The position numbers and the translations under genes were made by a program. Positions 15 through 41,280 of a DNA stretch of 41,353 nt are shown piece by piece. The stretch is taken from IMG/VR virus record IMGVR_UViG_3300046507_000422, positions 1 to 41,353 of that record, one strand, 5' to 3'. The notes beneath the pieces were generated by a model. The model was not told the DNA's origin and ran no database searches. It saw only the letters and a program-made list of their open reading frames with translations. Numbering within the stretch: position 1 is the stretch's first letter; every line of letters begins with the position of its first letter. This DNA is from a virus.

Positions 15-91
15 GGTGGCTGTAGCTCAGTTGGTAGAGTCCAGGATTGTGATTCCTGTTGTCGTGGGTTCGAGCCCCATCAGCCACCCCA
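15..91 (+). tRNA. tRNA-His (GTG anticodon)
   Basis: Cloverleaf reads directly: acceptor arm 16-22 pairs with 81-87, anticodon stem 42-46 pairs with 54-58, and the loop 47-53 carries GTG at 49-51, decoding His codons. The 3' CCA is encoded (89-91). The G at 15 can pair with discriminator C88, the extra G-1 that is diagnostic of tRNA-His. The gene is intact and serves as the prophage attachment site; its 3' half (from position 47) is the recombined, phage-borne part. Confidence 0.96.
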
Positions 92-99
92 CCGAATTC
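47..99 (+). repeat. attL, 53-bp attachment core
   Basis: Identical by eye to 41228-41280. It spans the anticodon loop, T arm, acceptor 3' strand and CCA of tRNA-His plus 8 bases beyond. Integration here keeps the tRNA functional. The repeat bounds a unit holding an integrase at its right end, so these are the prophage ends. Confidence 0.95.
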
Positions 100-2348: not shown

Positions 2349-2756
2349 CTAGGGGTTCAGGGCAGCGGCTGCGACGAAGAGTTCGTCGGCCTCCACATCG
2401 GTCTTGCCCAATGTGGCAATGCCGATGGCAACGAGCGGGTCATCTCTGCGTACGGTCAGAGCTGTTGCCCATTTGATGCGAGCGCGATCACCGTCCTCGC
2501 CGGACATAGCCGCCAGGGCGTTCTCCCATGGAGTCAGCCAGCCGGCGTCATACATGGCCATCCGAGCGTTCAGCATCGGGACTGCTTCGGGCACGGCGGG
2601 CTGGGCGGCGGGAGGTTCCGGCGCCCCCAGAACAACTTCATAGTTCCCCAGCACATCGAACTGGAAGTCGATTCCATCGGCACGAAAACGGTCCTGTAAT
2701 ACTTGGACGGCGCGGAACGGACCAAAGACGCCCGCGTCGGAAAGAATCGTTTTCAT
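2349..2756 (-). CDS. Tail-fibre-associated (assembly-like) protein
   Basis: 135 residues overlapping the end of the tail fibre gene by 4 bp (2753-2756). The middle has AMYDAGWLTPWENALAAMSG and an R-IKW stretch followed by PLVAIGIATLGKTDVEADELF, a pattern I associate with small proteins encoded after phage tail fibres. It may help fold or attach the fibre. Function is inferred from pattern and position. Confidence 0.6.
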   Translation of the reverse strand: MKTILSDAGVFGPFRAVQVLQDRFRADGIDFQFDVLGNYEVVLGAPEPPAAQPAVPEAVPMLNARMAMYDAGWLTPWENALAAMSGEDGDRARIKWATALTVRRDDPLVAIGIATLGKTDVEADELFVAAAALNP

Positions 2757-4774
2757 GCGGCCGCCTCCACGCGCTTAATAGTCCGGCCACCCGCGACGGC
2801 CGAGTTATCCAAACACCACGCTTCGTTAGCGGCGCCAGGTGCCCCAACCAAAAAATTGGTCGTCATCGGCACCTGCGCCTGGACGCTGTTTGGCGCAAAG
2901 CGGCTGTCATTAGCTTGCGTTCCACTCATCCCGTAGACCGCAGTGCCGACCGTGAGTTTTGTGAAACTGCGTGCGCCATCCGAGACACCAGAACCCAGTG
3001 GCACGTTCAACGCACGAGATACACTTTGAATAGCCAGCAAGCTAGGGGCGCTGCCAGAGCAGTCCACCGAAACCTGTACAAATCCGCTGCCCGCACTGTT
3101 CTTAAACACGAACCTCCCCGTGGTGCCGGTCAACGCCAGTGCCGCCACCGCCGACGGTCCTCCATTCCCGCCAATGCAGTTGTATGGGGCCCCAAGGCTC
3201 GGGACACCGGCTGTGTCGGTCAATATCGTCAGATACAGATAGGTGTTAGTGGTATCTGCATAACCCAGCAGCACTTTGCTGGCATTGATGGGCAGGTAGT
3301 CACTGACGCTCCCGGCGTTAATGCTGGTCACGTTCGCGGTACTCGCCGCTTCCACTGTCCCGCTCAGCTTGAAAATCGTTATGTACGCCGCAGCCGAATT
3401 GACGTGCTGCACCACGATATTGCCGTTGCCGTTCATCCAGGCTCGCGCGTCATTGCTTGTCGAAGTGCTTCCGGTGGTAGCGCGGGTGCCTGGGGTCAGG
3501 CCGGTGCCCGACACGGTGTAGGGCTGGGCGTACAGCGCGCTCCCATCTGTCCCTACTGCTCGAACAATGGAGCCAGCTGCGAACAACACCAAGGCGCCAT
3601 TGGAGCTGGCCGATGTTAACGTTGCAGAACCGCCGACGGCTGGCGTGACGCCAGTCACAGTCAAAGCACGCACCAGCATCCCCACTCCACTATCCCCATA
3701 GCCCTGAACCCAGCTCGCCCCCACCACCGTCAGATTGCTCCAGCTGGTGACGCTGCCGGACAACGTCCAGGTAGCTTTGTTTGCTGTGTTGACTGTCAGG
3801 CCGGCGCCGATAGTGACAGTAACTGCCTCGGCCGCACCACCAGAGCAAGTAGTAACGAGGATTTGATTAGCGCCAGAAAGGACTGCTGATACACGGCCGC
3901 CGGTACTGATGGAGCGGATCAAAACCGGCCCCAGCCAAGATTGCGTCGACGAGTCGTACAGTGCGCCGTAAAGAAGACCAAAGAGAACGAAGGTTCGGTT
4001 GGCATCGACTACGACGCGAAGAATGTTGGTGTCGTTCGTTGCGGTCGAGATGGATGGAGAAGCCAAGATGGCGGTTACGCCGATCTTTTGGATATCAGGC
4101 AGGAGCCAGGTACCGGCCGCCGTACTATTGTCCGATAGCCCGATTGTGACAGCTGCACCAGCCCGCACCCAGCCAAGGACGGCGCCTGTGTAGTCCTTGA
4201 CTCCATAATCGTAGTCTCCGTTATTCTGGATAGCGAACAAGGCCACGGCCTTCTGGCACGTCGTCGCGTCAGGCAGTGTTGCATAGAGTCCCGGCGAGGT
4301 GGGATTCGCGGTAATAGCGGATATCGAATTGCTTATCAGAGCGATATTGCCAGTGATATTCATGCCGCCGAGGCCTACGGCCAGCAACTGGATGGCCCAG
4401 TGTGCGGAGTCCAGCGAAGGGTTGGTATTGCGTACGCCAGCGCCGATGGAACGGTACGGGAGACGGTTTAAAGGGTCCCAGACAGCATCGCCGTCGGCGT
4501 ACGTGCCGGCCACCCATTTCACCGCATTACTCGAACTGGAAGCTGCGGCGGCACTTGAAGCGGCGTCAGCAGCGCTCACAGCCGCTGATAGCGCCCAACT
4601 GTAAACCTGTATCGCATTGGCGTACACATTGTCTGCCACGGCCTGGAACAATGCGACCGCTGCTGTCAGCCAAGTGATGAAGGCATCGACCCGGTCGCGG
4701 AAAGTGGCCCGGTCACCGCGCTGCGGAGCGGGCGTTGGCGCGGGGTCGATGAGTGGTGGTGGAGTAGCGGACAT
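2753..4774 (-). CDS. Tail fibre / receptor-interaction protein
   Basis: 673 residues. The N-terminal 60 are proline-rich then helical (RDRVDAFITWLTAAVALFQAVADNVYANA), followed by an Ala/Ser-rich segment and a KWVAGTYADGDAVWD module seen in phage fibres near the attachment region. The long remainder is rich in Gly, Ser, Thr, Val and Asn, as expected of beta-structured fibre shafts. The ATG overlaps the previous stop by one base. It contains no copy of the DGR variable repeat, so this fibre is not a DGR target. Confidence 0.8.
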   Translation of the reverse strand: MSATPPPLIDPAPTPAPQRGDRATFRDRVDAFITWLTAAVALFQAVADNVYANAIQVYSWALSAAVSAADAASSAAAASSSSNAVKWVAGTYADGDAVWDPLNRLPYRSIGAGVRNTNPSLDSAHWAIQLLAVGLGGMNITGNIALISNSISAITANPTSPGLYATLPDATTCQKAVALFAIQNNGDYDYGVKDYTGAVLGWVRAGAAVTIGLSDNSTAAGTWLLPDIQKIGVTAILASPSISTATNDTNILRVVVDANRTFVLFGLLYGALYDSSTQSWLGPVLIRSISTGGRVSAVLSGANQILVTTCSGGAAEAVTVTIGAGLTVNTANKATWTLSGSVTSWSNLTVVGASWVQGYGDSGVGMLVRALTVTGVTPAVGGSATLTSASSNGALVLFAAGSIVRAVGTDGSALYAQPYTVSGTGLTPGTRATTGSTSTSNDARAWMNGNGNIVVQHVNSAAAYITIFKLSGTVEAASTANVTSINAGSVSDYLPINASKVLLGYADTTNTYLYLTILTDTAGVPSLGAPYNCIGGNGGPSAVAALALTGTTGRFVFKNSAGSGFVQVSVDCSGSAPSLLAIQSVSRALNVPLGSGVSDGARSFTKLTVGTAVYGMSGTQANDSRFAPNSVQAQVPMTTNFLVGAPGAANEAWCLDNSAVAGGRTIKRVEAAA

Positions 4775-5697: not shown

Positions 5698-8600
5698 GAT
5701 TCCACCTGCACCAGCATCGGGCCGCCACCACCGGTCGCGTTATCGAACAGGTCGACATGCTTTCCAGTGCTGACAGCGATTTGGCGCAACACGGCCTGCT
5801 GGTTGGTCACCACCTGCCGCAGGGCGCGCATTTCCATGGCAAGCGCGGCGGTGTCGACCTCCGGTGCCCGTAACCGCCGGATCAGCTCACGATTGTCGGC
5901 GGCCGGCACCACTCGCTCCCCTTCATGGATCAGTGCCGGCATCGTGGACGGAACAAAATTGGTGCCCACCGCGAAGCCGCGCAGCGATTTGATGTACTCG
6001 TCCGAGTTATAGAAGTCCTGTTTGATCTTGTCGATCGACACGCCCGCGTTCAGCGCCTTTGTCCAGAACTCAATGCCGGTCGCCTCGCCATGGCGTTTCA
6101 GAACGGTCTCGTACAAATTCTCGATCTGTGCCTCAGGCGAGCTTTTGATATAGCCCACCACGGTATCGAGTGATGTGCCATTCGCCACCAGATTTTTGTA
6201 GTAGTCGAGCCCGGCAGATTCCGGGTTGCGCCCCAGATACTGCTGGTAAGCGGACGTAATAGCCGATGGCGCCGCGGCCACAGGATTCGCCATCGCGGCC
6301 GAAATCGCCGACTGCAATCCAATGATCGCATCAGCCACCGATATGACGCCAGTATTGATGCCTTTAAGCACATCGATCTGCGACTGGCCATTCGCCAGGA
6401 TGTCGTCCAGGTGATGAATTTGCGCATCGTAGGCGGCCTGCTCCGCATCCTTGGCGGCCTTCGTGGCTTCGAGTATTTTTTCGTTAACCGTCAGCTGGTT
6501 GCCGGTGAGATCACCCAACTCTGCGATGTCGCGCGCGGTCGCGAAGAAGTTGCGCTGGTAATCGGCCTTCGAGGAAAACTGGCTAGACGACTCCTGCGTG
6601 GCCGCCCGCAATGCGGACTGAATCCCATCCGAATCCGGCAGCGGGCCGCCGGCGCGCGCGATGGCCAGCGCGGCGGCAATCTGCGCTTGCCCGGACAGGC
6701 GGTTGCTTTCTTCCTGTCCGGGCAAGCTGAGGCCGGACAAGGTTGATTGCAGCGAACCCGACAGGGACTGCAGTTTTCCAACGGACGTGTTGACCGCATC
6801 TATCTGCGCCTGGTAGGCGGTCATCGCGGCCTGATGCGCAGAATCGGCGCGCGCGCGGTCCGCGCTCACCGAACGCTGCAGGCCGGCATAGGCGGCGTCC
6901 ACATCCGTCAGCAGCGAGGTGGCGGCTTCCTGCTGAGCCTTGGCTGCGTCGGCGGCGGCCTTGTGCGCCTGGATCTGGTCGAACAACGCCCTGTTGCTGG
7001 CGTCGAGCGCGTCGCGCTGCTGGGCCAGCAACTGGTTCGACGTCAGCGTCAACTGGTCATACTGCTGCTGCAGTCCGGCCCGCTCATCGGCGATCTGCTG
7101 CTCCGATTTGGTGGCGGCGACGGTGACCGTATGCACCTGCGCGAAGGCGTCGGCCAGGGCCAGCAGCTGCGCCTCCTGCTTGCGCCCGGCCTCGGTGCTG
7201 AGATCGATGCTGCGCGCGACTTCTTTGAACTGGTCGCGCGAGGTGATGGCCCGAGCGCCGGAGTAGCCCAGCCCGGCCAGCGCCGCGTCGAGCGCCTTCT
7301 TCACCGGCGCCAGCTGCTCCTCGGGCGTCAGATAGTTTTGCGCGAAGCTGCTGGTCTGGCTGCTCAGCTTATCCAAGCCGCCAGCGAAGTTCACCAGTTC
7401 GTTGCGCGCCGCCTCCGATGCCAGCCCCACCGCACCGAAGGCGTCACTGCCCTTGCCCAGCGCCTGGGCCACCAGATTGGTGGTGGCGAATTCATTGGCA
7501 ACGCGCTGCAGCGCGGCGCTGGTGGCCTCGGTCGGCTGCTTCAGGGCGGCCACCTCCACCAGGGTCGTCTTGATGCCGAACAGCGCTTCCCCGGAATCCT
7601 TCAGCGCGGCGCGATATTGCAGCACGGCTGCCGCCTCGGTAGCCAGCTGCTGGGATGTGCCAGTAAAGCCGGCCTCCAGCGCGGACAGGCCGGGCTGCAC
7701 GCCGTCGAGGATGTTGTTGATGCGATCGGCGAAGATCTTGTCCAGCTGGCCGTTGGCGTTCGGGTTGGCGCCCTCCTCGCCGGTGTGCGCGGTCTCGGTC
7801 TTGCCGGTCAGGTAAGTGGCCACCGACGCCTTTTCGGTCGCGGTGAGGAACGTGGCCAGCGCGTCGTCGGTGGCGGATACCGTCTTGATGAAGTCCTGTA
7901 CTACCGGCTGGTCGGTGTTCATCCAGAAGCTGGAGTTCACGCCGAAGGTGCCGAAGGCGGAGGTCCCGTAACCGCCGATGTACGAATCCGACTGCCCTTG
8001 GTTGCCACGCTCGTTGATCGAGATATTCCCCGGCGTGTTGTTGCTGACGAACTGCAGTCGGGTGTCCTTCTCGGGGCCATCCTGCATGGAGCCGACAATC
8101 GCGAGCGCCGCCAGCGCGGCCCAGCCCCAGACCGGAATCGCGGCAAGCGCCGCGCTGGCGCCGGCGGCAATACCAGTGCCTGCTGCAGCACCGCTCAGGG
8201 CGCCGCCCGCCGCGATCGTGCCGGCACCGGCAGCGACACCAGCAACGGCGCCATGGTTCTGGCCCACGTTGTATGCAGCCAAACCACCGCCAGCAGCTGC
8301 CAGATATGGCGTGGCGGAGCTGGCGTAACTGCCAAACTGCGCGGACGTGGTCATCGGCGCGCCCAGGGCCTCGGACGCGGCACCGGCGGAGCCGCTGTAA
8401 CCGCTGGCGAACTGGCCGAGGTAGCTGGGCTGCGAGGACAGGCTGTAAGCGGAGTTCAGCGCGCTGGCGCTGCTGAAGGCGCTGGTGATGCCGCTGCCTG
8501 CGCCACCACCGCCAGCCAGCGCGGATTGTACCGCTGGGCCGGAGATCGAGCCGGCCAGGCTTTCAACCACGGAAAGCACGTATTTCTTGGCAAAGGTCTG

Positions 8601-14466: not shown

Positions 14467-17400
14467 CTATGCCACCCGCTCAGCGCTGAGCGTACCGTAT
14501 GCCGCCACGGTCCCGGCGCTGAAGGTTGCCTGCGCCACCAGGTGCAGAGTCGTGTCGGCGGCGACCGAAAGGGTGGTCGTGGATGCCTGTGTCAGCGTGT
14601 CGGTCACCGTCGTCATGGCTAGTGGTAGCGATGCTAAGCCATCAGTGCCCAGGCCGCTGCCGCCTGCCTGCGTTGGCAGCGTGTTCAGGGTCACCGAAGG
14701 CCCGGATTTGAAGCTGGTTGCCGTCGCGCCGCCCAGAGCGTAGTCGACGTTGCCGGTCATGACCCAGTTGCCCTTCGTCACAGCCAGCGTCAGCACATCG
14801 GCGGCGGTCGCGGTGGTCAGCGACACAGCGGCGCCCGACGCTTTGGTGGCCGTCAGGATTTCGCCGACGTAGCCCACGGGGGCGAAGGCAGCGAGCGTCG
14901 AGCCGCGCTGGGTGTAGTAGGTTTTCCAACCCACCGGGGTGGCGAAGCTGACGCTGGAATTCGTTGATGTGACCTCGCCGATCCGGCAGGAACCGATATT
15001 GCCGCCGGTCAGCGCGCGAATATCGAAGGCATTGGCCGCGCTGAAGTTGTTGCCGGGATCGATCAGCTTGACCCGCTTCAGGTAGACGTTGGTCATTTCG
15101 CGGTTTGCGTCACTGAATGCCTTGCCGCCGCCGCTGTCGTCCGCAACGAGAATGACATCGACTTCGAGCTCTCCGGCGCCCGCCGCGTTGGTGGTGTCCT
15201 GGTCGATCTTGCACATGTAGCCGCCGCTCGGATTCTTGGCGGTGTGGATGTACGCCTTGATGCGGTTGCCCTGCGGGATGCGCTTGGTGCGGCAGACGCC
15301 CATGACGGGGGATAGCGTCGCGTTGACCAGTCCGGTGGCGTTGGCAAGGCTGATCGTCGGTGCCGTGGCATATTGACCTGGCTCGGTGATCTTCCAGTCG
15401 GTCAGCGCGCCATCTTCCACGAAGAAGTAGCCAGACGCATTGACGGTCGGGGTGCCGCCAGTGAAGATCATGTCATAGCGCGTACGGGTGGTGGCGCCGC
15501 CGCTGCCCCAGCCCAGGCCTGGGTGGTTCGCATCGTTCACGTTGGCGGTGCCGCCGGGCGTGACGCCCATAATTCCGTTGGTAGCGACCGAAGGGAACAG
15601 CGCGTTCGCCGCGTTGGTCTTGTTGTAGAACTGGAACGCTTCAGCCGTGCTGCCGCTCACCTTACCGTAACCAGCACAGGTTGCATTGACGTCGGTATCG
15701 AAGAAAGTCCCTTCAAGGTGCGGGCCACTGTGCCCGCCGACGCTGACCAGATCGAACTTGGTGCCCACTGTAGGGCCGGCGGTACCGCCCGGCGCCACAA
15801 TGGTGAACGACATCGCCTGGCTGCTGTAGATGGTCGGCGGCGCCACCACGGTACCGTCGCGCGAGTACACCTTGATGTCGCAATTGATGAACGGGCCCAG
15901 CGTGCAGACACCGAATACATCGGCACCCGCCGCGTAGTTGGACGAGCCGCCGACGCTTGACAGGTTCATCTTGCCGCCGAAGTTCATCGCGGTGCCACTG
16001 GCATCCTTGCGGCCGGACGCCGAACTGGAACCGGTCAGCGTGCCAGAATCGGTGTGGACGAAGCGGACATCGATGCTGCTGTCTTCCAGCTTGGTGAACG
16101 ACGCCATCGAGTCGTAGAAGTTCACTTTGGAGAAGTGCATGTTGCGGGCGTACGCGGCCACGGTGGTGGTGGTCGGGTCGCTGCCGATGTAGCTGGTGCC
16201 GCAGTTCCGGACATCGACGTTGGTCACATGGCAGTCGCTGGGCTCGGCCACTGCCGAGCCACCGTTGTACAGCTGGAACGCACCGCCCCAGCAGTCACGA
16301 ACGTAACCGTTGACGATCTTGGCGAAGGCGTTATCGCTGGAGTCCCAGGAACCGATGCCGAACAGGCGCGCCGCCCGCACATTGAAGCCGTCAACGATGG
16401 CGCGGTAGGTATTGTTGGACGCGATGATCGCGCCGTTTGCATGACCGACGCCGATATCGAGGTTGCAACCATCGATATCCAGCTGGGTCATGATGGTATT
16501 CTTGTTGTAGCCATTCAGGTGGATCGCGTTGCCACGGCAATTCGTCACCTTGAAATTGTTCAGCACCGCTTGATTGCCGTGCTGCATGTATACCTCGCCA
16601 GGCGCATTGATCGAGGTAAAGTTATCGACCGTACCACCGGTCGAGTAGCACATCAGCTCGATGGCCGATGCCCAGTAGTTGGCAGTTTGGTTCTGCGCCC
16701 AGTTGCCGTCGACGCTGGCATTCAGCAGGGTGAATGCGCTGCCGGCGATCTTCGACGTGGCGTCGATCATGACGCTCTTGACAACGAAGGTGGCACCAAC
16801 GTCCAGTAGTTCGTTCGAGTTGCCGCCCGAGCTATCGTCGATGACCAGAGACAGCGCAGCTTCGAAGGTCACCACTTTGGTATCGGGATTGATCGACAGG
16901 ACGCGAAGCGGGGTATCGCTGTTGGTGCCCTGCGTTCCGATCAGGGTATGGCCAGTCGTGTCACCAGGCCCCTTGACGATGACGCTCATACCGGCCTGCA
17001 GCCCGGTCACGCTGGACAACCCGACCGAAGTGCTCGTGTTGCCTACTTTCGTCGTGGTCGTGTAGACCAGTTCCGGGGCACGCTGAAGGACGGAGCCGTT
17101 CAGATCGACGATTTGCCCCGGCTTGAGCTGCACGGCGCCGGAGTAAATCGGATAGACCGCGTTGTGCGGGAAGACGATGTGTTGCGTATTCGCCGAGTTG
17201 GCGAAGAAGTCGCGGAGCGCAGCGAAATCCTTGGCCGAGTCACCGGTTGGCGAAGGAGCAGTCACGGTCGCAAGATACGATCTTTGCGCCACTACCGCAT
17301 CAACCACCATCGCATCAATCGTACCTGCGGTGCAGGCGATCAGCACGCGCTGTGATCCTTGGAACGGGCCGAACTGAGGCATGCTACCAGCCACAGCCGC

Positions 17401-17706
17401 AGCTGCTACGCCGATCACAGCACCGGATGCATCGACGCGGGACACGCTGCCAGTCACCCCGACCGAGCCTACCAAACTGAGCGCCTGCCCTTCCGGAAGC
17501 AGTATAGTCTCAGCCCGCCCCACCCTCACGGTGAATGCGGAGTACTTTTGCTGCAGCGCGTTCGATGCCGGGGCAAATACCGTACCACCCGTCAAATCTG
17601 ACGAAGCCTGCTTGGCCACAATCAGGCCGGCCTCGGTCCCAGCATCAAGCGTGACGATAGCGTTGGCCGGATAGCGGTCGTATGCGCAAAGCAAGCGGAT
17701 CGTCAT
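14467..17706 (-). CDS. Large right-handed beta-helix-like protein encoded inside the head cluster
   Basis: 1079 residues with SD AAGGA before ATG 17706. The N-terminal 60 residues (MTIRLLCAYDRYPANAIVTL, then AGLIVAKQASSDLTGG) look like small head-associated proteins. Residues about 160-560 have the repeated Asn/Gly/Val pattern of parallel beta-helices (IHLNGYNKNTIM, VDNFTSINAPG, NCRGNAIHLNG), as in tailspikes and pectate-lyase-like phage proteins. The C-terminal half is beta-rich. It lies between the small head protein and the connector, not with the fibre, so it may decorate the capsid or act as a head fibre. Enzyme activity on polysaccharide is possible but no catalytic set is evident to me. 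Confidence 0.7.
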   Translation of the reverse strand: MTIRLLCAYDRYPANAIVTLDAGTEAGLIVAKQASSDLTGGTVFAPASNALQQKYSAFTVRVGRAETILLPEGQALSLVGSVGVTGSVSRVDASGAVIGVAAAAVAGSMPQFGPFQGSQRVLIACTAGTIDAMVVDAVVAQRSYLATVTAPSPTGDSAKDFAALRDFFANSANTQHIVFPHNAVYPIYSGAVQLKPGQIVDLNGSVLQRAPELVYTTTTKVGNTSTSVGLSSVTGLQAGMSVIVKGPGDTTGHTLIGTQGTNSDTPLRVLSINPDTKVVTFEAALSLVIDDSSGGNSNELLDVGATFVVKSVMIDATSKIAGSAFTLLNASVDGNWAQNQTANYWASAIELMCYSTGGTVDNFTSINAPGEVYMQHGNQAVLNNFKVTNCRGNAIHLNGYNKNTIMTQLDIDGCNLDIGVGHANGAIIASNNTYRAIVDGFNVRAARLFGIGSWDSSDNAFAKIVNGYVRDCWGGAFQLYNGGSAVAEPSDCHVTNVDVRNCGTSYIGSDPTTTTVAAYARNMHFSKVNFYDSMASFTKLEDSSIDVRFVHTDSGTLTGSSSASGRKDASGTAMNFGGKMNLSSVGGSSNYAAGADVFGVCTLGPFINCDIKVYSRDGTVVAPPTIYSSQAMSFTIVAPGGTAGPTVGTKFDLVSVGGHSGPHLEGTFFDTDVNATCAGYGKVSGSTAEAFQFYNKTNAANALFPSVATNGIMGVTPGGTANVNDANHPGLGWGSGGATTRTRYDMIFTGGTPTVNASGYFFVEDGALTDWKITEPGQYATAPTISLANATGLVNATLSPVMGVCRTKRIPQGNRIKAYIHTAKNPSGGYMCKIDQDTTNAAGAGELEVDVILVADDSGGGKAFSDANREMTNVYLKRVKLIDPGNNFSAANAFDIRALTGGNIGSCRIGEVTSTNSSVSFATPVGWKTYYTQRGSTLAAFAPVGYVGEILTATKASGAAVSLTTATAADVLTLAVTKGNWVMTGNVDYALGGATATSFKSGPSVTLNTLPTQAGGSGLGTDGLASLPLAMTTVTDTLTQASTTTLSVAADTTLHLVAQATFSAGTVAAYGTLSAERVA

Positions 17707-29622: not shown

Positions 29623-29698
29623 ATTTTAGGCATACCTAATCGATTTAGGCAAGACAATTTTAGGCATAGCAAAACCGCAACCTGTTAGGATTGCCTAA
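29623..29698. promoter_or_regulatory. cI/cro operator-promoter region with four operator-like sites
   Basis: Sites of the form TTAGGCATGCCTAA: TTAGGCATACCTAA (29626-29639), half-site TTAGGCAAGACAAT (29645-29658), half-site TTAGGCATAGCAAA (29660-29673) and TTAGGATTGCCTAA (29685-29698, touching the CI start). A leftward promoter TTGCCT-N18-TAAAAT overlaps the first two. CI and Cro presumably compete here. Confidence 0.8.
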
Positions 29699-30384
29699 TG
29701 AACTGGCATACAAGACTGACCGAGGCCCGAGAGGCCAAAAAAATAAACAAGTCCACTTTCGCTAAGATGGTAGGCGTCTCTGCGCCCACCGTCACGGACT
29801 GGGAAAATGGGAACACCAAGATGATCGAAGGTGCAAACCTGGTGAAAGTTTGCTCAGTCCTGGACATCTCCGCCGAGTGGTTACTCCATGGCGTAAAATC
29901 AATTACAGATTTGATTCCGGGAGCAATGCGCGTGGTGGTACGCGACGATACCGAAGACAACGCGAATATCTATAAAATACCGATGGTTCAACTCAGATTA
30001 CAGGCAGGGGTTACTGGATTTCAAACGGAGCCTGATCGACGCGATGGCGGGACAATGGGAATTCCAAAAAGCTGGGCGGATAGAAAAGAATACGATCCTG
30101 CTCAATTACTAGCTATAAGAGTCAAAGGCGAAAGCATGGAGCCCACCTTATATGAAGATGATATAGTCGTGATCAACCTCGCTCAACGCTCTCCAGTTGA
30201 CAACGCCATTTTTGCCGTAAACTATGATGGCGAAGCAGTCGTTAAAAGGATGTCACGCGACGCTGGCCAATGGTGGTTGATGTCCGATAACGCCGACCAA
30301 CGACGTTTTTATCGACGGGCTTGCAAAGAAACAGAATGCATTATTATCGGGCGAGTAGTACGCCGTGAAGGCGATCACTTTTAG
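29698..30384 (+). CDS. CI-like repressor with S24 self-cleavage domain
   Basis: 228 residues. N-terminal HTH (about 20-40: TFAKMVGVSAPTVTDWENGN). The C-terminal LexA-like domain has Ser146 in VKGESMEPTL and Lys183 in GEAVVKRM. An Ala-Gly pair (103-104, LQAGVTGF) fits the RecA-stimulated cleavage site. So it maintains lysogeny and should be cleaved on DNA damage. SD AGGA lies 7 bases before the ATG, and one operator overlaps the start, allowing autoregulation. The DNA from here to 30.9 kb is AT-richer than the late genes. Confidence 0.93.
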   Translation: MNWHTRLTEAREAKKINKSTFAKMVGVSAPTVTDWENGNTKMIEGANLVKVCSVLDISAEWLLHGVKSITDLIPGAMRVVVRDDTEDNANIYKIPMVQLRLQAGVTGFQTEPDRRDGGTMGIPKSWADRKEYDPAQLLAIRVKGESMEPTLYEDDIVVINLAQRSPVDNAIFAVNYDGEAVVKRMSRDAGQWWLMSDNADQRRFYRRACKETECIIIGRVVRREGDHF

Positions 30385-30963: not shown

Positions 30964-31452
30964 TCACGCCACCAGGTTTGCCAAGCGCTCCCATCTGGTG
31001 AGGCCAAGCGCGTAGTCCGGCCGGCCGTTCGCGGTAACGTTGGTGTTGTAGGCGACCTTCGCCAAGGAACGAAAGCCCCCCGGAGCATCCGCCTGCAGCT
31101 GCTTGAGCTCCCGATCAATCTCGGCGAGCACGAGATCGTCCGCGCTGATGTTCAGCGCAGCGTATTTCTTCTTGGCGGCATCGTGTTCGACGGCCTTCTC
31201 TACCGGACGCACCAATCTCTCGATCACCGCCACGGCGGCCACCAGCGCACCGGCGACCACACCCGCCGCCTTGTATTCACCGAGCGCGGCGATCAACGCG
31301 CCGCTGCCGCCGAACAGTCCGACGAAACCAAACGCCAGGTCCAGGCGCCGATACAGCCGCGCGTTCAAGTCGTTATAGCACTGGCCATAGCGGATATCGA
31401 GGATCGCCTCGTACTTGGTCCGGTCATCGGTCCTCACATGAATATTGTCCAT
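30964..31452 (-). CDS. Two-TM membrane protein, SLATT-like, inserted in the operon leader
   Basis: 162 residues from ATG 31452 with GAGG upstream. N-terminal charged helix (KYEAILDIRYGQCYNDLN), two hydrophobic segments (LAFGFVGLFGGSGALIAAL and AAGVVAGALVAAVAVIERL), then a charged soluble region. This resembles the SLATT membrane proteins often found as phage or defence effectors; the family call is tentative. It runs opposite to the DGR operon and is bracketed by the 32-bp repeat, so it is probably a later acquisition (moron) with its own promoter. Confidence 0.6.
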   Translation of the reverse strand: MDNIHVRTDDRTKYEAILDIRYGQCYNDLNARLYRRLDLAFGFVGLFGGSGALIAALGEYKAAGVVAGALVAAVAVIERLVRPVEKAVEHDAAKKKYAALNISADDLVLAEIDRELKQLQADAPGGFRSLAKVAYNTNVTANGRPDYALGLTRWERLANLVA

Positions 31453-31686
31453 CCAACACCTCACAAAGTTGTTTCGCAGGAGGTGGCGGCGGTGGTGGAT
31501 TACGCACCGGCGGCACCTGGTTTCTCTTTCCGTCCGAGTCCATGGCAGCTCCTTTGTTCGGCTTGTTTTGTTGTTTGGAAACTCATTATAAGCACATGCA
31601 TTGGAGCTGCCACCCTTTTTCAGCGCTTCTCCGACGACCGTCTGGTGTCGCTGAACGCCTAACACCCCCCCCCTTCGCTCAACTAC
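31453..31686 (-). promoter_or_regulatory. Gap upstream of the membrane-protein gene with a candidate promoter
   Basis: No gene seen. On the minus strand a TATAAT (31590-31585) preceded by TGCT could be the promoter of the 30964-31452 gene; the -35 is weak. A 9-bp inverted repeat GGCAGCTCC (from 31544) / GGAGCTGCC (from 31603) surrounds it and a run of C occurs near 31665. The plus strand is not obviously coding. Confidence 0.45.
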
Positions 31687-31718
31687 CACCGATGGAGAAC
31701 AGCATGTCCCAGCAAACC
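31687..31718 (+). repeat. 32-bp direct repeat, right copy (start of target gene 1)
   Basis: Second copy of the 30875-30906 repeat. It supplies the ribosome site (GGAG at 31694-31697) and ATG 31704 of DGR target 1. Confidence 0.9.
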
Positions 31719-32132
31719 GCAACAGCCGCAGTCACCCTCCCCGAAGTCAGCATCACGCCCGGCATGATCCCGGCCGTAATTGGCGCCGCGTTCGCTGGCG
31801 GCATTTACGCCGGCATCCTGCGCGGACTGGACGGCCAGCCTGACTCGCACCTGATCGCGATCGATGGCGAGGCCGAGGACGTCACTTGGGACGAGGCCAT
31901 GGCCTTCGCCGCATCCGTCGGTGGCGATCTGGGCACGCGCCGCGAGCTGCGCCTGGCCTGCGTCAACCTGCAAGACAAGTTCTCGCATGACGACTGGTAC
32001 TGGTCCTGCGAGCAGTACGCCGCTAACCCGACCAGCGCATGGGGCCAGGGCTTTGGCAATGGCGGCCAGAGCTACGACCCCAAGGCTTCCTCCGGCCGGG
32101 CGCGCGCCTTCCGCAAATTGCCCATCCGCTAA
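31704..32132 (+). CDS. DGR target protein 1 (C-type-lectin-like), diverged variable region
   Basis: 142 residues from ATG 31704; the ATG at 31692 is upstream of the GGAG site. The N-terminal part has GGIYAGIL, then a DUF1566-like segment (TWDEAMAFAASVGGDLGTRRELRLAC), and the C-terminus WYWSCEQYAANPTSAWGQGF leads into the variable region ending SGRARAFRK. It has the same plan as targets 2-4. This fold displays variable residues on a ligand-binding face. Its variable repeat has non-adenine changes, so it may no longer be diversified. Confidence 0.85.
   Translation: MSQQTATAAVTLPEVSITPGMIPAVIGAAFAGGIYAGILRGLDGQPDSHLIAIDGEAEDVTWDEAMAFAASVGGDLGTRRELRLACVNLQDKFSHDDWYWSCEQYAANPTSAWGQGFGNGGQSYDPKASSGRARAFRKLPIR
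32010..32118 (+). repeat. Variable repeat VR1 (decayed) in target 1
   Basis: Aligned by eye with the template 38070-38178: 14 differences at template adenines and 7 at C, G or T (mostly silent or at the ends). The GC tract is kept, but the end reads CGCAAATT rather than CGCAGATT. The other three VRs have no non-adenine changes. Confidence 0.85.
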
Positions 32133-32160: not shown

Positions 32161-32194
32161 CGCCGATCCCCTCACCCAAGCAATGGAGCATGCC

Positions 32195-32815
32195 ATGAGC
32201 GCATCCGCAGTCGCAGCTGTACCTGAAGCAAATTCCTCCATGCCAGCCATCGGCACCTTCATCCATGGCGGCTATTTCGTCGGCCAGATCCGCGTCGAAG
32301 GCACGCTGTATGGCCTGGTGATGGCCGGCGCCGCTGGCGAGGTCAGCGGCCGCTGGCACAGCAGCGCCGGCAAGATCGAAGGCGTGCTCAGCCGCCGCGA
32401 CGGCCGCGAGAACACCATCGACATGGATGCCGCCGGCAGCAAACTGGCCGCGCGCGTCCTGGCGCTGAACATCAACGGCTTCTCCGACTGGTACATCCCA
32501 GCCGTGGACGAGCTGGAGATCGCGTATCGCAATTTCAAACCGTCCACTACTTCGAACTGGCCCGGCCACGGCGTCAACAAGAACAGCGTGCCGATGGGCG
32601 ATGCATACACCGACGATTCGCCGGCCCAGACCACCGTGACCGCCCTGGTGGAGGATGAGGCCGACGCGCTGGTCCCAGCCTGGTACTGGTCCAGCACGCA
32701 GTACGCCGCCTACCCGACCAACGCGTGGGGCCAGGTTTTCGACTTTGGCACCCAGGACGGCTACCACGAGTCTTCCTCCGGCCGGGCGCGCGCCTTCCGC
32801 AGATTCGCAATTTAG
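32195..32815 (+). CDS. DGR target protein 2 (C-type-lectin-like)
   Basis: 206 residues from ATG 32195 with GGAG at 32185-32188. N-terminal HGGYFVGQI, a central SDWYIPAVDELEIAYRN motif typical of DUF1566/FGE-like DGR targets, and C-terminal WYWSSTQYAAYPTNAWGQ then the variable stretch and SGRARAFRRFAI. The protein should carry about ten variable residues on the lectin face. No signal peptide or membrane segment is evident. Its ligand is unknown. Confidence 0.93.
   Translation: MSASAVAAVPEANSSMPAIGTFIHGGYFVGQIRVEGTLYGLVMAGAAGEVSGRWHSSAGKIEGVLSRRDGRENTIDMDAAGSKLAARVLALNINGFSDWYIPAVDELEIAYRNFKPSTTSNWPGHGVNKNSVPMGDAYTDDSPAQTTVTALVEDEADALVPAWYWSSTQYAAYPTNAWGQVFDFGTQDGYHESSSGRARAFRRFAI
32696..32804 (+). 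repeat. Variable repeat VR2 in target 2
   Basis: 109 bp aligned with the template without gaps: 14 substitutions, all at template adenines; every other position is identical. Most hit AAC/AAT codons, turning Asn into Tyr, Gly, Val, Phe, Thr or Asp. After CGCAGAT the VR has T where the template has C, marking the end of homology. Confidence 0.96.
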
Positions 32816-32832
32816 TCCTTCAGTAATTCGAT

Positions 32833-32853
32833 CCGGCGCGCGACGCGCGCCGG
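32833..32853. other. GC-rich inverted repeat after VR2
   Basis: Perfect 10-bp arms CCGGCGCGCG / CGCGCGCCGG around one A, beginning 29 bp after VR2 and beyond the target 2 stop. In the Bordetella phage DGR an inverted repeat downstream of VR aids target recognition; this may be the counterpart. Confidence 0.75.
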
Positions 32854-36241: not shown

Positions 36242-36850
36242 ATGAACCTCAACACGAATGCAATTCCCGCTTCCATCGGCGCCGCACTGGCCGGCGGTTT
36301 CTTCACCGGTCTGATCAACATCGGTCAGGACACTTACGCCCTGATCGCGGCTCCCAAGTCGGTCGGCGAGTACCGTGGCCCGTGGAATGAATCCGACAAA
36401 TCGGTCATTGGCGCGGAAAGCTACTGCGACGGCTTCGCCAACACCACGGCGATGGCGGATGCCGGCAGCGAAATGGCGCAGTGGGCGCGCAGCCTGAACA
36501 TCGACGGCTACAGCGACTGGTACATCCCGGCGCGGGACGAGCTGGAACTGGCCTACCGCAACCTGAAGCCTACCGCCGATGAAAACCTCGAATCGTTCCG
36601 CGATGGCGATAACCCCAGCAGCTCGCCGGTCGGCTACCCCTACACCGGCGCCCTGCCTGGCCAGACCACCGCGGAGGCCTTCCGCCAAGGCGGCGAGCAG
36701 GCGCTGGCGCCGAACTGGCACTGGTCCAGTACGCAGTACGCCGCCAACCCGGCCAACGCGTGGCTCCAGGTTTTCGACGATGGCAGCCAGGGCTACGACC
36801 ACAAGTCTTACTCCGGCCGGGCGCGCGCCTTCCGCAGATTGAAAATTTAG
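36242..36850 (+). CDS. DGR target protein 3 (C-type-lectin-like)
   Basis: 202 residues from ATG 36242. GGFFTGLI near the start, DGYSDWYIPARDELELAYRN in the middle, and C-terminal WHWSSTQYAANPANAWLQVF into the variable part, ending SGRARAFRRLKI. This is the DUF1566/FGE-like lectin plan of targets 1, 2 and 4. It is in the same module as avd, template and RT, so it is a proximal target. No secretion signal seen. Confidence 0.93.
   Translation: MNLNTNAIPASIGAALAGGFFTGLINIGQDTYALIAAPKSVGEYRGPWNESDKSVIGAESYCDGFANTTAMADAGSEMAQWARSLNIDGYSDWYIPARDELELAYRNLKPTADENLESFRDGDNPSSSPVGYPYTGALPGQTTAEAFRQGGEQALAPNWHWSSTQYAANPANAWLQVFDDGSQGYDHKSYSGRARAFRRLKI
36731..36839 (+). repeat. Variable repeat VR3 in target 3
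   Basis: 109 bp aligned without gaps to the template: 11 substitutions, all at template adenines, including AA to CT, AA to GT and AA to GG in Asn codons. No other differences before the CGCAGAT end. Confidence 0.96.
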
Positions 36851-36867
36851 TCCTTCAGTCATTCAAC

Positions 36868-36887
36868 GCTGGGCACAGCCGCCCAGC
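36868..36887. other. Inverted repeat after VR3
   Basis: GCTGGGC and GCCCAGC (7-bp perfect arms) around a 6-base loop, starting 29 bp after VR3, the same distance as the repeat after VR2, and beyond the target 3 stop. Confidence 0.7.
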
Positions 36888-36916
36888 ATTCATCACCCGC
36901 AACCGAGGAGCATGAA

Positions 36917-37528
36917 ATGCAACAAACAACCGAGAACGAGGTCATCATCCTGCAGCTGGGCGATGGCGCGCTGTCCGTACCGAAGGAGTCCCTGATGCTG
37001 GCCTGGCTCAACCAGGTGCTGCTGACCGCGCCGGCGACGACCCCACACCACTCCGTGCCGCGCATCGGTGCCGAGTGGCCCGGCGAGGGCGGCGTCTACG
37101 CCGGCATCATGCGCGGCGAGAATGGTAAGCCGGACTATCACGTAATCGTCCCGACTTGCGAGGACGCGTTCGTAAAGGAGATCACCTTCGGCCCAGCCAA
37201 GGATGTGCCGAGCGCCAGTAGCGAGTACGACGGCCGGGCAAACACCATCGCACTGGTCAATGAAGGCGGCCATCCTGCCGCCGACTGGGCGCACGGCCTC
37301 GATATCGGCCCGCACAGCGATTTCTACCTGCCGGCCCGCCACGAGTTGCGCCTTGCCTGGTTGAACGTTCCTGAGCTGTTTGAGAAAGCTTGGCACTGGT
37401 CCAGCACGCAGTTCGCCGCCACCCCGGCCAGCGCGTGGACCCAGAATTTCGGCAATGGCTTCCAGGGCGACACCCTCAAGTCTTCCTCCGGCCGGGCGCG
37501 CGCCTTCCGCAGATTGATCATTCAGTAA
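36917..37528 (+). CDS. DGR target protein 4 (C-type-lectin-like)
   Basis: 203 residues; GAGGAG at 36905-36910 precedes ATG 36917. GGVYAGIM, a shortened central domain (SDFYLPARHELRLAWLN), then WHWSSTQFAATPASAWTQNF and the variable part ending SGRARAFRRLIIQ. It is followed 13 bp later by avd. Its N-terminal 45 residues differ from the other targets, suggesting a different attachment. Confidence 0.93.
   Translation: MQQTTENEVIILQLGDGALSVPKESLMLAWLNQVLLTAPATTPHHSVPRIGAEWPGEGGVYAGIMRGENGKPDYHVIVPTCEDAFVKEITFGPAKDVPSASSEYDGRANTIALVNEGGHPAADWAHGLDIGPHSDFYLPARHELRLAWLNVPELFEKAWHWSSTQFAATPASAWTQNFGNGFQGDTLKSSSGRARAFRRLIIQ
37406..37514 (+). repeat. Variable repeat VR4 in target 4
   Basis: 109 bp aligned without gaps to the template: 14 substitutions, all at template adenines. 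VR2, VR3 and VR4 also share a 3' flank containing TTTAGTCCTTC shortly after the homology ends; VR1 lacks it. Confidence 0.96.
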
Positions 37529-37540
37529 TTTAGTCCTTCC

Positions 37541-37897
37541 ATGGCCATCCATTCCGAATTGCCGATCTACAAGCTGACCTACGAACTGATGTTGCTTGCG
37601 ATGGAGTTTATCAAGAACATGCGCCGCGACTTCAAAGGCACCGTCGGTAAGGAGATCAACACAGAGTGCCTGGGGCTGTCGCTGCTCGTCTACCGCGCGA
37701 ACTGCGCCAAGGACAAGACGCTCTACCTCGACCGGCTGATCGAACGGGTCCAGGTCACGGAGCTGCTATTCCGGCTCTCCGTCGACTTGAACCTGATCTC
37801 AAAAACGCAGTATGCCAAGGCAATCGGCCTGACCAGCAAGATCGGTCGCCAGGCCAATGGATGGCGCAAGCACTCCGCATCGTCGCCCGCCACCTGA
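37541..37897 (+). CDS. avd: DGR accessory variability determinant (Avd)
   Basis: 118 residues, MAIHSELPIYKLTYELMLLA, then KNMRRDFKGTVGKEIN, YRANCAKDK and ERVQVTELLFRLSVDLNLIS: the four-helix-bundle Avd family that binds the DGR reverse transcriptase and the template RNA. The order target, avd, TR, RT is the same as in the Bordetella phage BPP-1 DGR. No clear ribosome site; it starts just after the conserved flank of VR4. Confidence 0.92.
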   Translation: MAIHSELPIYKLTYELMLLAMEFIKNMRRDFKGTVGKEINTECLGLSLLVYRANCAKDKTLYLDRLIERVQVTELLFRLSVDLNLISKTQYAKAIGLTSKIGRQANGWRKHSASSPAT

Positions 37898-38069
37898 CCG
37901 TCAAGGCAGTCAGGTCTGAGCGATTTTTAATCTGGTCGTGCCGCTGGCTCACAAGGCCACCGCCAACGCGCACCACAGGAACCACCCAGGGCGTCTGGGC
38001 AGGCCTGGCGCAGTTTCCCTGCTGATCGGCCAAAGGCCTTCGGCGGGGTGATGTAGATAGCATGAATTG
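37898..38069 (+). ncRNA. Untranslated leader of the DGR template RNA
   Basis: 172 bp with no gene between avd and the template. It begins with a 7-bp stem ACCTGAC / GTCAGGT (37892-37915) and later has GGCC-AAA-GGCC (38025-38035). In BPP-1 the regions flanking TR form part of the structured template RNA that primes cDNA synthesis. This stretch, with the TR and the start of the RT gene, is the likely equivalent. Boundaries are inferred. Confidence 0.5.
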
Positions 38070-38178
38070 ACGCAGTACGCCGCCAACCCGACCAACGCGT
38101 GGAACCAGAATTTCGACAATGGCAACCAGAACAACAACCACAAGTCTTACTCCGGCCGGGCGCGCGCCTTCCGCAGAT
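38070..38178 (+). repeat. Template repeat (TR) of the DGR
   Basis: 109 bp, the invariant parent of VR1-VR4. In the VR frame it has nine AAC/AAT codons among about 36, the usual arrangement that lets adenine mutagenesis yield many amino acids without stop codons. A 17-base G/C-only tract lies at 38152-38168, like the GC element of the initiation-of-mutagenic-homology site. The last base after CGCAGAT is C, whereas the active VRs have T. The last 60 bp overlap the RT reading frame in a different frame. Confidence 0.95.
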
Positions 38179-39291
38179 CATTGCGATGCAGACTTCACTC
38201 TTGAAGATCTGGCGGTCGCATACTTCGACTGCCGGAAAAGCAAGCGCAACTCCCCCAACGCTCTCAAGTTCGAACTGAACTTGGAGCGTAACCTCATTCA
38301 GCTGCACGACGACCTGGTCGACGGCTGCTACCGGCCAGGCACTTCGGCGTGCTTCGTCGTGACCCGGCCCAAGCCGCGCGAAGTATGGGCCGCCGACTTC
38401 CGCGACCGTGTCGTGCACCACCTGCTCTACAACCGAGTGGCGCCGCGCTTCTACGCCTCGTTCATCGCCGACAGCTGCGCGTGCATCCCAGGGCGCGGCA
38501 CGCTTTATGCCGCTCAGCGCCTCGAAGCCAAGATCCGCAGCGCCACGCAAAACTGGTCCAAGCCAGTGTGGTACCTGAAATGCGACCTGGCGAACTTCTT
38601 TGTTGCGATCGACAAACACGTGCTGCACCAGCAGCTGGCCGCCCGCATCACCGAGCCATGGTGGCTGCGCCTGACTGAGACCATCCTGTTCCATGACCCG
38701 CGCGAGGATTTTGAGCTGCGCGGCGCGCCGGAACTGCTCGCCCTGGTACCGGCGCACAAGCGACTGGCGAACCACCCGGCCAGCCACGGGCTGCCCATCG
38801 GCAACCTGTCTTCGCAGTTCTTCGCCAACGTCTACCTCGACTCGCTGGACCAGTATGTCAAGCACCGTCTGCGCGCCCGGCACTACATCCGCTACGTGGA
38901 TGATTTCCTGCTGCTGCACGAATCGCCGCAATGGCTGAACGCCGCGCTGGCCGACATCAACCAGTTCCTGCCGACAGTGCTGCATGCCCACCTGAACCCG
39001 ACCAAGACCATCCTGCAGCCCGTGGCGCGCGGCGTCGACTTCGTTGGCCACGTTATCAAACCATGGCATACCCGCATCCGGCGCCGCACGGTGCACCAGG
39101 CGGTCAACAGGGTGGCCAGGATCGCGGATGAAGATGTGTTCGCCACGGCCAACAGCTATTTCGGCCTGCTTGGACAGTCCACCGCAAGCCACAGTGATCG
39201 CGCGGCGCTGGCCCGGGCAGTGATGCGCCGCGGCCACTGCGTCAACCAGGCATTCACCAAGACCTACCGGAAATTTGCGAGGGCGGCATGA
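38119..39291 (+). CDS. DGR reverse transcriptase
   Basis: 390 residues by the ATG 38119 reading. DGR hallmarks: LEDLAVAYFDCRKSKRN near the start, catalytic Asp156 in WYLKCDLANFF, the DGR-specific IGNLSSQFFAN (227-236), and YVDD at 259-262. It copies the TR RNA with adenine errors, and the cDNA replaces VR. ATG 38119 lies inside the TR, and no other ATG or GTG start exists between the upstream stop (38068-38070) and the conserved LEDL, so the first 20 residues are read from TR. A rarer start codon further in is possible. Confidence 0.95.
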   Translation: MATRTTTTSLTPAGRAPSADHCDADFTLEDLAVAYFDCRKSKRNSPNALKFELNLERNLIQLHDDLVDGCYRPGTSACFVVTRPKPREVWAADFRDRVVHHLLYNRVAPRFYASFIADSCACIPGRGTLYAAQRLEAKIRSATQNWSKPVWYLKCDLANFFVAIDKHVLHQQLAARITEPWWLRLTETILFHDPREDFELRGAPELLALVPAHKRLANHPASHGLPIGNLSSQFFANVYLDSLDQYVKHRLRARHYIRYVDDFLLLHESPQWLNAALADINQFLPTVLHAHLNPTKTILQPVARGVDFVGHVIKPWHTRIRRRTVHQAVNRVARIADEDVFATANSYFGLLGQSTASHSDRAALARAVMRRGHCVNQAFTKTYRKFARAA

Positions 39292-39778: not shown

Positions 39779-40005
39779 GCAACTATCTCACCGCCGAAGA
39801 ACTGGCCAGCCTGATCGGCTGCGCACCCACGAGCTTCGCATGCATGCGCCGCTACCTGCAGCGCAACAGCTGGCCATTCGAGCCGAACCTCCGGGGCTTT
39901 CCTCGCGTCAGCCGGGCCTATCATGACGCACGGTTGTCGGGAACGCTGCAGCAGGCCGTCGTCACCGGCGACGCCGAGCCTGACTTCAGCATGTTCGCAG
40001 CATGA
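39775..40005 (+). CDS. DUF4224-type small protein before the integrase
   Basis: 76 residues from ATG 39775 with TGGAG upstream. It begins MSNYLTAEELASLIGCAP and has an N-terminal HTH-like part and a basic middle (RYLQRNSWPFEPNLRG), the DUF4224 pattern of small proteins encoded just before phage integrases. It overlaps the integrase start as ATGA. It could be an excisionase-like factor, not shown. Confidence 0.82.
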   Translation: MSNYLTAEELASLIGCAPTSFACMRRYLQRNSWPFEPNLRGFPRVSRAYHDARLSGTLQQAVVTGDAEPDFSMFAA

Positions 40006-41099
40006 TCGGCCGTCGCAAATCCCCGGACGGCCTGCCGTTCCGCCTATACGAGCGGAAAGGCAAGTTCAAGGTCAGCTACGGCTACAAGCTCCCGGATGGA
40101 TCGTGGGCTTTCCGGCTGAGCGCGGCGACGAACGATACCGAAGCGGTAAAGGCCATCAGAGCGGAAGCCATCGAGCGCGCGAATTCCCTAAACGGCGCGA
40201 CGCCGCTGCTTGGCTCGACCGAAAAGCTGTTCGACAAATACTTCGCCTGGCAAAGCTCGCTCCCGAAGGACAGCGAAGACCGCAAAGCGCCCGGCACATT
40301 GAAAGAGAACGCCTACGAGGCCAAGCGTCTGGTGCTGTCGTTCGGCAAAGTCAAGCCGGACCAGATCAAGCCGGTGCACGTGTACAAATACCTCGCCGGC
40401 CGCGCCGCCCAAGGCGCCCCAGCCAAGGCAAACAAGGAGGTGGCCCTGCTGTCGGCCGTGCTGGAGTACGGTCGCCGTCTGGGAGAGCTGGAGAAAAATC
40501 CTTGTCGCGGCATCAAATACAACAAGACCAAGCCGAGGGACAAGTATGTTGGCCAGGGCGACCTTGACATGCTGATGCGTGTCGCGCGCGAGCGTGGCGG
40601 AGCCTATGTCACGGTCGCATTGTGTCTGCACGTCGCGTACCTGACCGTCAGTAGGCCAGATGAGATGAGGTGGTTGGTGCGCCAGGGTGTCACGGAGGAA
40701 GGCATTCGTCTGCCGGTCGGGAAACGCAAGGGAGGCGAGGCGCAACGCCATAAGCTCATCAGGTGGTCGCCGGAACTGCGCGCCGCGATCACCGAAGCGC
40801 TGGCGGTACAACGGACAACCAGCATCTATGTTTTCGGCAATACCAGCGGCCAGCCATACACGGTGAGCGGCTTCAATACCAATCTTCGCCGGCTGATGGC
40901 GCACTGCGCCAGCCAGGCGGAGAAGGATGGCGTCACGTTCACCAGGTTCACGCTGGCGGACATGCGGCCGTCGGCGGTCACCGATAGGATGGAGGAAGGG
41001 GATGAAAAAATCACGGACGCCACCGGCCACAAGGATGGCAGGATGGTCGCGCAGGTCTACGACAGGCGCAGAACAAAGTCGGCAAGAGCGACAAAATAG
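40002..41099 (+). CDS. int: Tyrosine integrase with an altered box II
   Basis: 365 residues. Arm-type and core-binding N-terminal regions, then the catalytic domain: Arg in SRPDEM, Lys in GKRKGG, Arg322 in LADMRP, His343 in GHKDG, Tyr353 in VYDRR. The usual His of box II (HxLR) is Ala319. The gene ends 129 bp before attR. With attL in tRNA-His and a DUF4224 partner, it is the integrase of this prophage. Transcription from the DGR operon would run into it. Confidence 0.92.
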   Translation: MIGRRKSPDGLPFRLYERKGKFKVSYGYKLPDGSWAFRLSAATNDTEAVKAIRAEAIERANSLNGATPLLGSTEKLFDKYFAWQSSLPKDSEDRKAPGTLKENAYEAKRLVLSFGKVKPDQIKPVHVYKYLAGRAAQGAPAKANKEVALLSAVLEYGRRLGELEKNPCRGIKYNKTKPRDKYVGQGDLDMLMRVARERGGAYVTVALCLHVAYLTVSRPDEMRWLVRQGVTEEGIRLPVGKRKGGEAQRHKLIRWSPELRAAITEALAVQRTTSIYVFGNTSGQPYTVSGFNTNLRRLMAHCASQAEKDGVTFTRFTLADMRPSAVTDRMEEGDEKITDATGHKDGRMVAQVYDRRRTKSARATK

Positions 41100-41227: not shown

Positions 41228-41280
41228 TTGTGATTCCTGTTGTCGTGGGTTCGAGCCCCATCAGCCACCCCACCGAATTC
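41228..41280 (+). repeat. attR, 53-bp core, 3' half of tRNA-His
   Basis: Identical to 47-99 and thus the displaced original 3' half of tRNA-His. The bases on each side differ from attL. It fixes the right end of the prophage. Confidence 0.95.

Follow-up and report, generated by a model that had tools for sequence, protein, structure and literature searches.

A prophage diversity-generating retroelement with a structured RNA upstream of its template and a putative long-range duplex at the template 3′ end

Introduction

How does a diversity-generating retroelement (DGR) begin to copy its template when no structured spacer separates that template from the reverse transcriptase (RT) gene? The question is raised by a locus in IMG/VR virus record IMGVR_UViG_3300046507_000422, analysed here over its positions 1 to 41,353 (41,353 nucleotides, hereafter the window). 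As far as the accessible literature goes, the initiation of complementary DNA (cDNA) synthesis in DGRs has been worked out only for the Bordetella phage BPP-1, in which it starts from a spacer located on the 3′ side of the template (PMC12875486), so that a large lineage without such a spacer must solve initiation in another way. We consider it likely that the window carries a complete and recently active DGR in which an RNA located 5′ of the template repeat (TR) folds back onto the TR 3′ end for cDNA priming. Adenine mutagenesis, DGRs with multiple variable repeats (VRs) and overlap between TR and RT are already known (PMC3521204).

A complete retroelement with adenine-directed variation

An earlier note on this DNA had placed a complete DGR module at 36242-39291. 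Profile searches and the comparison of TR with the VRs bear out its completeness, with targets, Avd, TR and RT all accounted for; the interval itself, however, contains only targets 3 and 4, avd, TR and RT, while targets 1 and 2 lie 3.4-4.5 kb upstream (Table 1). The RT has the motifs attributed to it, IGNLSSQ at 38797 and YVDD at 38893, falls inside the DGR clade in profile searches (phrog_1423, 1.5e-119), and has BPP-1 bRT as its best solved-structure match (8ub7, 5e-37); it also groups with other DGR RTs in a tree built without a non-DGR outgroup. Matches to PADLOC RT models were discarded as generic RT similarity not indicative of a defence RT. Avd additionally matches NCBIfam and Pfam models below their cut-offs, and RT, Avd and TR are all intact.

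The VRs were compared with the 109-nt TR without gaps, at fixed coordinates. The counts of the earlier note were reproduced exactly for VR2, VR3 and VR4, which differ from TR at 14, 11 and 14 positions, respectively, with all 39 differences at template adenines and none over 234 non-adenine positions. Because just 31 of the 109 TR bases are adenines, the probability of obtaining such adenine-only substitutions by chance is very low (1.7e-9 for VR2, 2.2e-7 for VR3 and 1.7e-9 for VR4); by codon position, the changes are distributed as 19, 20 and 0 over positions 1, 2 and 3. Among about 160 relatives, 4362 of the 4447 mismatches in 340 VRs are found at a template adenine, a proportion which is biased upward by a VR scan that penalizes non-adenine mismatches. 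Adenine-specific mutagenesis, as claimed earlier, thus holds for VR2-VR4 (39/39) and has its exception in VR1, where 14 of 21 differences are at adenines and 7 are not. VR1 looks like an older target which is now seldom overwritten, while the adenine-only pattern supports recent overwriting of VR2, VR3 and VR4 and, together with the intact RT, Avd and TR, the recent activity proposed for the element. The possibility that VR1 was copied from the TR of another phage was rejected, as its own TR is still the closest and no TR from a relative fits better.

A structured RNA upstream of the template

The space between avd and TR is occupied by a full-model match to the RT-15 structured RNA (RF03018), which reaches 169.6 bits, well over the gathering score of 82 bits, and has covariation-supported helices. 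RT-15 was found in the same location in all 18 relatives tested. A sample of 300 genomes of the order gave six matches over the cut-off, each of them in a DGR of the same clade, one of the six genomes being the Janthinobacterium genome on which the sample was centred; matches of 25-29 bits, none of them close to an RT, were set aside as chance. The family was reportedly defined by Weinberg in 2017, and no mention of “RT-15 RNA” was found in the open papers searched.

On the opposite side, the window lacks a structured spacer ahead of RT: TR continues directly into the RT gene, the conserved part of RT starts about 10 nt past the TR end, and the Rfam search gives no RNA 3′ of TR. The first conserved RT residue lies 0-23 nt beyond the TR 3′ end in the window's clade, as opposed to 126-311 nt in six DGRs with a 3′ spacer, and the gap between avd and TR is 158-174 nt, as opposed to 0-32 nt in 3′-spacer DGRs.

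Covariation-supported pairing between the RNA and the template 3′ end

The RT-15 segment AAUCUGGU is nearly invariant, and the AUCUG within it (37930-37934) is complementary to CAGAU at the very end of TR (38174-38178). In relatives, the bases preceding AUCUG co-vary with those following CAGAU, yielding strands such as UUGAAUCUG/CAGAUUCAA in Cruim01 and UUUCAAUCUG/CAGAUUGGAA in a Cupriavidus prophage. The covariation comes mainly from the pair 37928-38180, with partners 252 nt apart. It is paired in 94-95% of cases by U-A, G-C, C-G or A-U (95% standard in 115 distinct cases, versus 48% when partners are re-dealt), and shows the second strongest covariation of all column pairs in a 105-sequence alignment (z 29.8). 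Independent columns simulated on the RT tree reached the observed covariation in none of 400 trials, and the 17+17 changes at the two positions collapse on that tree to 20 joint ones. At this pair, RT-15 fits the TR flank in 92% of cases and the VR flank in 62%; pairing with target flanks instead of TR was rejected as weaker at the covarying positions, and this difference would help to tell template RNA from target mRNA. A lone 6-8 nt complement in a single DGR was not counted as evidence, since 3′-spacer DGRs yield such matches too.

The same layout is found in Bacteroides phages F2 and F4, the RT of which is about 33% identical to that of the window, with the duplex GUUAUCUG/CAGAUAAC at the TR end; the F2 DGR has no Rfam match. 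Relatives of F2 and F4 keep a duplex at the TR end in other sequences (UUCCGUAA/UUACGGAA, AUUUCCGU/ACGGAAAU, CUUCUUCC/GGAAGAAG, UUUCCAUU/AAUGGAAA and AAUGUUA/UAACAUU), and the longest complement in this lineage averages 7.1 bp within loci, 4.7 bp between swapped loci and 4.2 bp in shuffled sequences. Scans for relatives of two gut contigs returned none for one and only two for the other. Between avd and TR, the Bacteroides-phage-type DGRs display a conserved context in which the duplex strand is preceded by GTGCA and followed by AAATGGG, a candidate for a new RNA family related to RT-15.

In our sample, the side on which the RNA is located follows the RT phylogeny. In a tree of 39 DGR RTs, which has no outgroup and covers DGRs other than those with TR downstream of RT, all 5′-RNA elements are set apart from all 3′-spacer elements with support of 0.997-1.0, and the RT of the window belongs to the former clade. 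In some DGR loci TR is situated more than 1 kb downstream of the RT start.

Proposed mechanism

We suggest that the Avd-RT complex would copy TR into cDNA with errors opposite adenines, and that the mutated cDNA would overwrite the 3′ ends of targets 2, 3 and 4, reaching target 1 rarely or no longer. The RNA organizing cDNA synthesis would be RT-15, in a 5′ position unlike the 3′ position in BPP-1. Pairing of AUCUG and its neighbours with CAGAU and the first post-TR bases would fold the RNA back, bringing the TR 3′ end to the RT-15 domain or holding it there; the RT-Avd complex would bind this domain, and a nucleotide immediately 3′ of AUCUG would presumably serve as the cDNA primer. BPP-1 primes its cDNA in the TR 3′ junction from an adenine inside the spacer (PMC12875486). 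Its spacer bases 48-54 (AGGUGGU) can pair with AUCACCU of TR, with one G-U pair, and in 3′-spacer DGRs the last TR base likewise appears to be paired with the spacer. The BPP-1 priming base, which we take to be spacer A56, is two bases beyond this segment. The 5′-RNA and 3′-spacer layouts may thus represent permuted forms of one design.

Several observations weigh against this mechanism. The duplex in the window itself has only 5 bp, followed by an A-C mismatch and one more pair, and the 5-bp core hardly varies in the RT-15 clade, so that the covariation rests mainly on the pair 37928-38180; moving outward from it, neither of the next two pairs is significant on the RT tree. Thermodynamic folding of the window RNA alone does not set it apart from shuffled sequences (z -1.29) and does not predict the duplex, and covariation was used instead because single-sequence folding was uninformative. 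Finally, the role of the duplex in priming is suggested by analogy with BPP-1.

Alternative explanations

One alternative, which is compatible with the RNA mechanism, concerns the targets: we see it as an even chance that all four are virion receptor-binding proteins, as in BPP-1, with genes that happen to lie apart from those of the tail. In several clades of viral DGRs, most targets are tail proteins (PMC8144416), and Foldseek places phage tail fibres among the relatives. However, targets are short (median 172 aa), PHROG and Pfam profile searches reveal no recognizable tail domain in the four from the window, and RT-15 DGRs are systematically located in the repressor-integrase arm and not in the tail operon. 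In the window, the structural genes occupy the minus strand, and the DGR with all four targets occupies the plus strand between the S24 repressor and the integrase; among relatives, 19 of 22 records have the S24 repressor upstream of the DGR and on its strand, and 25 of 26 have terminase on the other strand. Repressor-to-integrase placement is seen in the annotated phages Magia, Haboob, Cruim01 and phPA-G, and in QDWS and LPPA56 the integrase is downstream of the DGR on the same strand, whereas the DGRs of BPP-1, BalMu-1, VHML, Lagaffe, phiARM81mr and ACA1 are inside the structural cassette and on its strand. With such a location, one may ask which proteins other than tail fibres are diversified by phages.

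It is unlikely, in our estimate, that the duplex controls RT translation and not cDNA priming, with pairing hiding or exposing the RT start and thereby switching the RNA between messenger and template. Such a role could be envisaged because TR contains the sole canonical in-frame start codon for RT in the window (ATG 38119), and the start could be affected because TR and its flank, including the duplex 3′ strand, are in the RT reading frame. Nevertheless, this codon precedes the duplex by 55 nt, and its site is not conserved, with the ATG of relatives being at -66 to -75, at -99, or only upstream of TR, while the duplex is always exactly at the TR 3′ end, the distant lineage included, and the TR end appears to pair with the spacer in 3′-spacer DGRs as well.

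It is highly improbable that this is an ordinary BPP-1-type DGR with a 3′ spacer hidden in the RT coding sequence and that RT-15 is an unrelated regulatory RNA. The gene order is that of BPP-1 and the RT is homologous to bRT, but the RT 5′ end is under no extra synonymous constraint, since its first 60 codons vary like the rest of the gene (observed/expected 0.82-0.95), and a hidden spacer is therefore not indicated there; furthermore, the stretch from TR to the conserved RT domain is variable in both size and sequence, and RT-15 covaries with the TR 3′ flank. That the DGR is decaying and no longer active, as the 7 non-adenine differences in VR1 might suggest, is scarcely credible in view of the intact RT, Avd and TR and of VR2-VR4 free of any non-adenine change.

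Targets, prophage and host

The VRs are at the 3′ ends of C-type-lectin-like target genes, terminating 4-5 codons before the stop. A PDB comparison of the target 3 model gives a single significant match, the C-terminal domain of Legionella Lcl (E 2.8e-4); C-type lectins come next, with insignificant E-values. Inverted repeats are present after VR2 and VR3, weak after VR1 and absent after VR4. The sites directly after VR2 (32800-32828) and VR3 (36835-36863) have AATTTAGTCCTTCAGT in common, which is found in part after VR4, and AT-rich AGTAATT/AATTTA words follow the VRs of many relatives; these sequences are possibly a target-side signal.

Table 1. Positions of the retroelement components and associated features in the window
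Feature	Position	Strand	Description or match
attL	47..99	+	53-bp direct repeat within and just past tRNA-His gene (16-91)
CI-like S24 repressor	29698..30384	+	Head of DGR-bearing arm; PF00717 2.6e-20
Target 1	31695..32132	+	C-type-lectin-like, ~145 aa if start = 31695; phrog_4245 9e-8; Lcl_C below cut-off
VR1	32010..32118	+	Older or decayed; end CAGAT -> CAAAT
Target 2	32189..32815	+	208 aa, Lcl_C domain; Pfam PF07603 over cut-off
VR2	32696..32804	+	
Inverted repeat after VR2	32833..32853	+	9-bp, GC, cruciform-like
Target 3	36242..36850	+	202 aa; AlphaFold model pLDDT 93; nearest solved fold Legionella Lcl C-terminal domain
VR3	36731..36839	+	
Inverted repeat after VR3	36868..36887	+	7-bp
Target 4	36917..37528	+	203 aa; phrog_4245 1.4e-26
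VR4	37406..37514	+	
avd	37541..37897	+	118 aa; phrog_3206 4e-28; NF033474 5.5e-14, below its cut-off
RT-15 RNA	37881..38072	+	RF03018, between avd and TR
Duplex 5′ strand (putative)	37924..37934	+	AUCUG and variable bases before it
TR	38070..38178	+	
RT open reading frame	38119..39291	+	Conserved domain from about 38188; ATG inside TR
Duplex 3′ strand (putative)	38174..38182	+	TR 3′ end CAGAU and first post-TR bases; 38180 pairs with 37928
Tyrosine integrase	40002..41099	+	Downstream of DGR; phrog_1 2e-34
attR	41228..41280	+	Second 53-bp repeat copy

The entire window is a prophage integrated in tRNA-His and bounded by the 53-bp direct repeat, and the temperate phage looks intact. Its host is probably a member of the Oxalobacteraceae, since its nearest relatives among named genomes are found in Herminiimonas, Janthinobacterium, Massilia and other representatives of this family.

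Three further open reading frames (ORFs), all on the minus strand, deserve mention. The product of 30964-31722, between the repressor and target 1, is weakly similar to the PADLOC 2TM effector model (9.3e-5) and is possibly a SLATT-like membrane protein. A 1079-aa ORF (14467-17706) between the head and tail genes, an unusual location for a spike-like protein, has only a weak right-handed beta-helix match, and no PHROG or NCBIfam match. A 673-aa ORF (2753-4774) without a family match, at the tape-measure end of the structural genes, is a possible tail fibre.

Novelty and implications

In the open literature, to which our search was confined, we found no description of RT-15 as the 5′ RNA of a DGR template, of the long-range duplex, or of an RNA side that follows the RT clade; priority on these points is therefore uncertain. 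As a broader and still tentative generalization, two DGR RNA topologies could track RT phylogeny, with the 5′-RNA class using a TR-3′-end duplex and priming from the upstream RNA in a permuted BPP-1 design, and its RT-15 subclass diversifying proteins of the lysogeny arm rather than virion receptor-binding proteins. The duplex leads to an exact prediction that is open to mutation and suggests a likely function for RT-15 RNAs, and, if RNA topology does follow RT phylogeny, each RT must be combined with the right RNA in DGR surveys and in engineered DGR tools.

Comparison with known systems

The BPP-1 DGR (mtd-avd-TR-brt) has the same gene order, Avd, DGR-type RT and adenine mutagenesis, and likewise carries its VR at the end of a lectin-like gene, on the 3′ side; the inverted repeat that follows the VR there has counterparts here after VR2 and VR3, but only a weak one after VR1 and none after VR4. 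Both phages attach at tRNA-His (47-99 in the window, 6689-6715 in the BPP-1 record), and their DGR RT clades differ. The likeness to BPP-1 drawn in the earlier note thus extends to gene order but not to RNA layout or location. In BPP-1, the Phage_DGR structured RNA (RF03022) fills the TR-RT space and avd abuts TR, whereas in the window the RNA is 5′ of TR and TR overlaps RT; BPP-1 has one target in the tail cassette, and the window has four in the repressor-integrase arm.

RT-15 itself is already annotated next to the RT in Pseudomonas phage Cruim01, but its Rfam model ends where TR begins and leaves out the long-range duplex to the TR 3′ end. In the 3′-spacer DGRs with RT-14 (RF02921), the structured RNA likewise adjoins TR, the end of which seems to be held in a helix, but the RNA is 3′ of TR and the RT belongs to the other clade; the TR-RT space of BalMu-1 holds RT-14, and weaker matches are found in ACA1 and VHML. 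DGRs with TR overlapping an RT ORF end (DiGReF group 3), as well as those with up to four VRs, have been reported previously (PMC3521204). In that survey, structure was not tightly correlated with RT phylogeny and the spatial arrangement was called irrelevant (PMC3521204), whereas in our sample the RNA side follows the RT clade exactly. The DGRs of Bacteroides phages F2 and F4 resemble that of the window in having TR next to RT, a 129-nt gap between avd and TR and, at the TR 3′ end, a duplex of 8 complementary bp; they differ from it in their distant RT, the lack of an Rfam match (F2), another duplex sequence, and a location after the structural genes.

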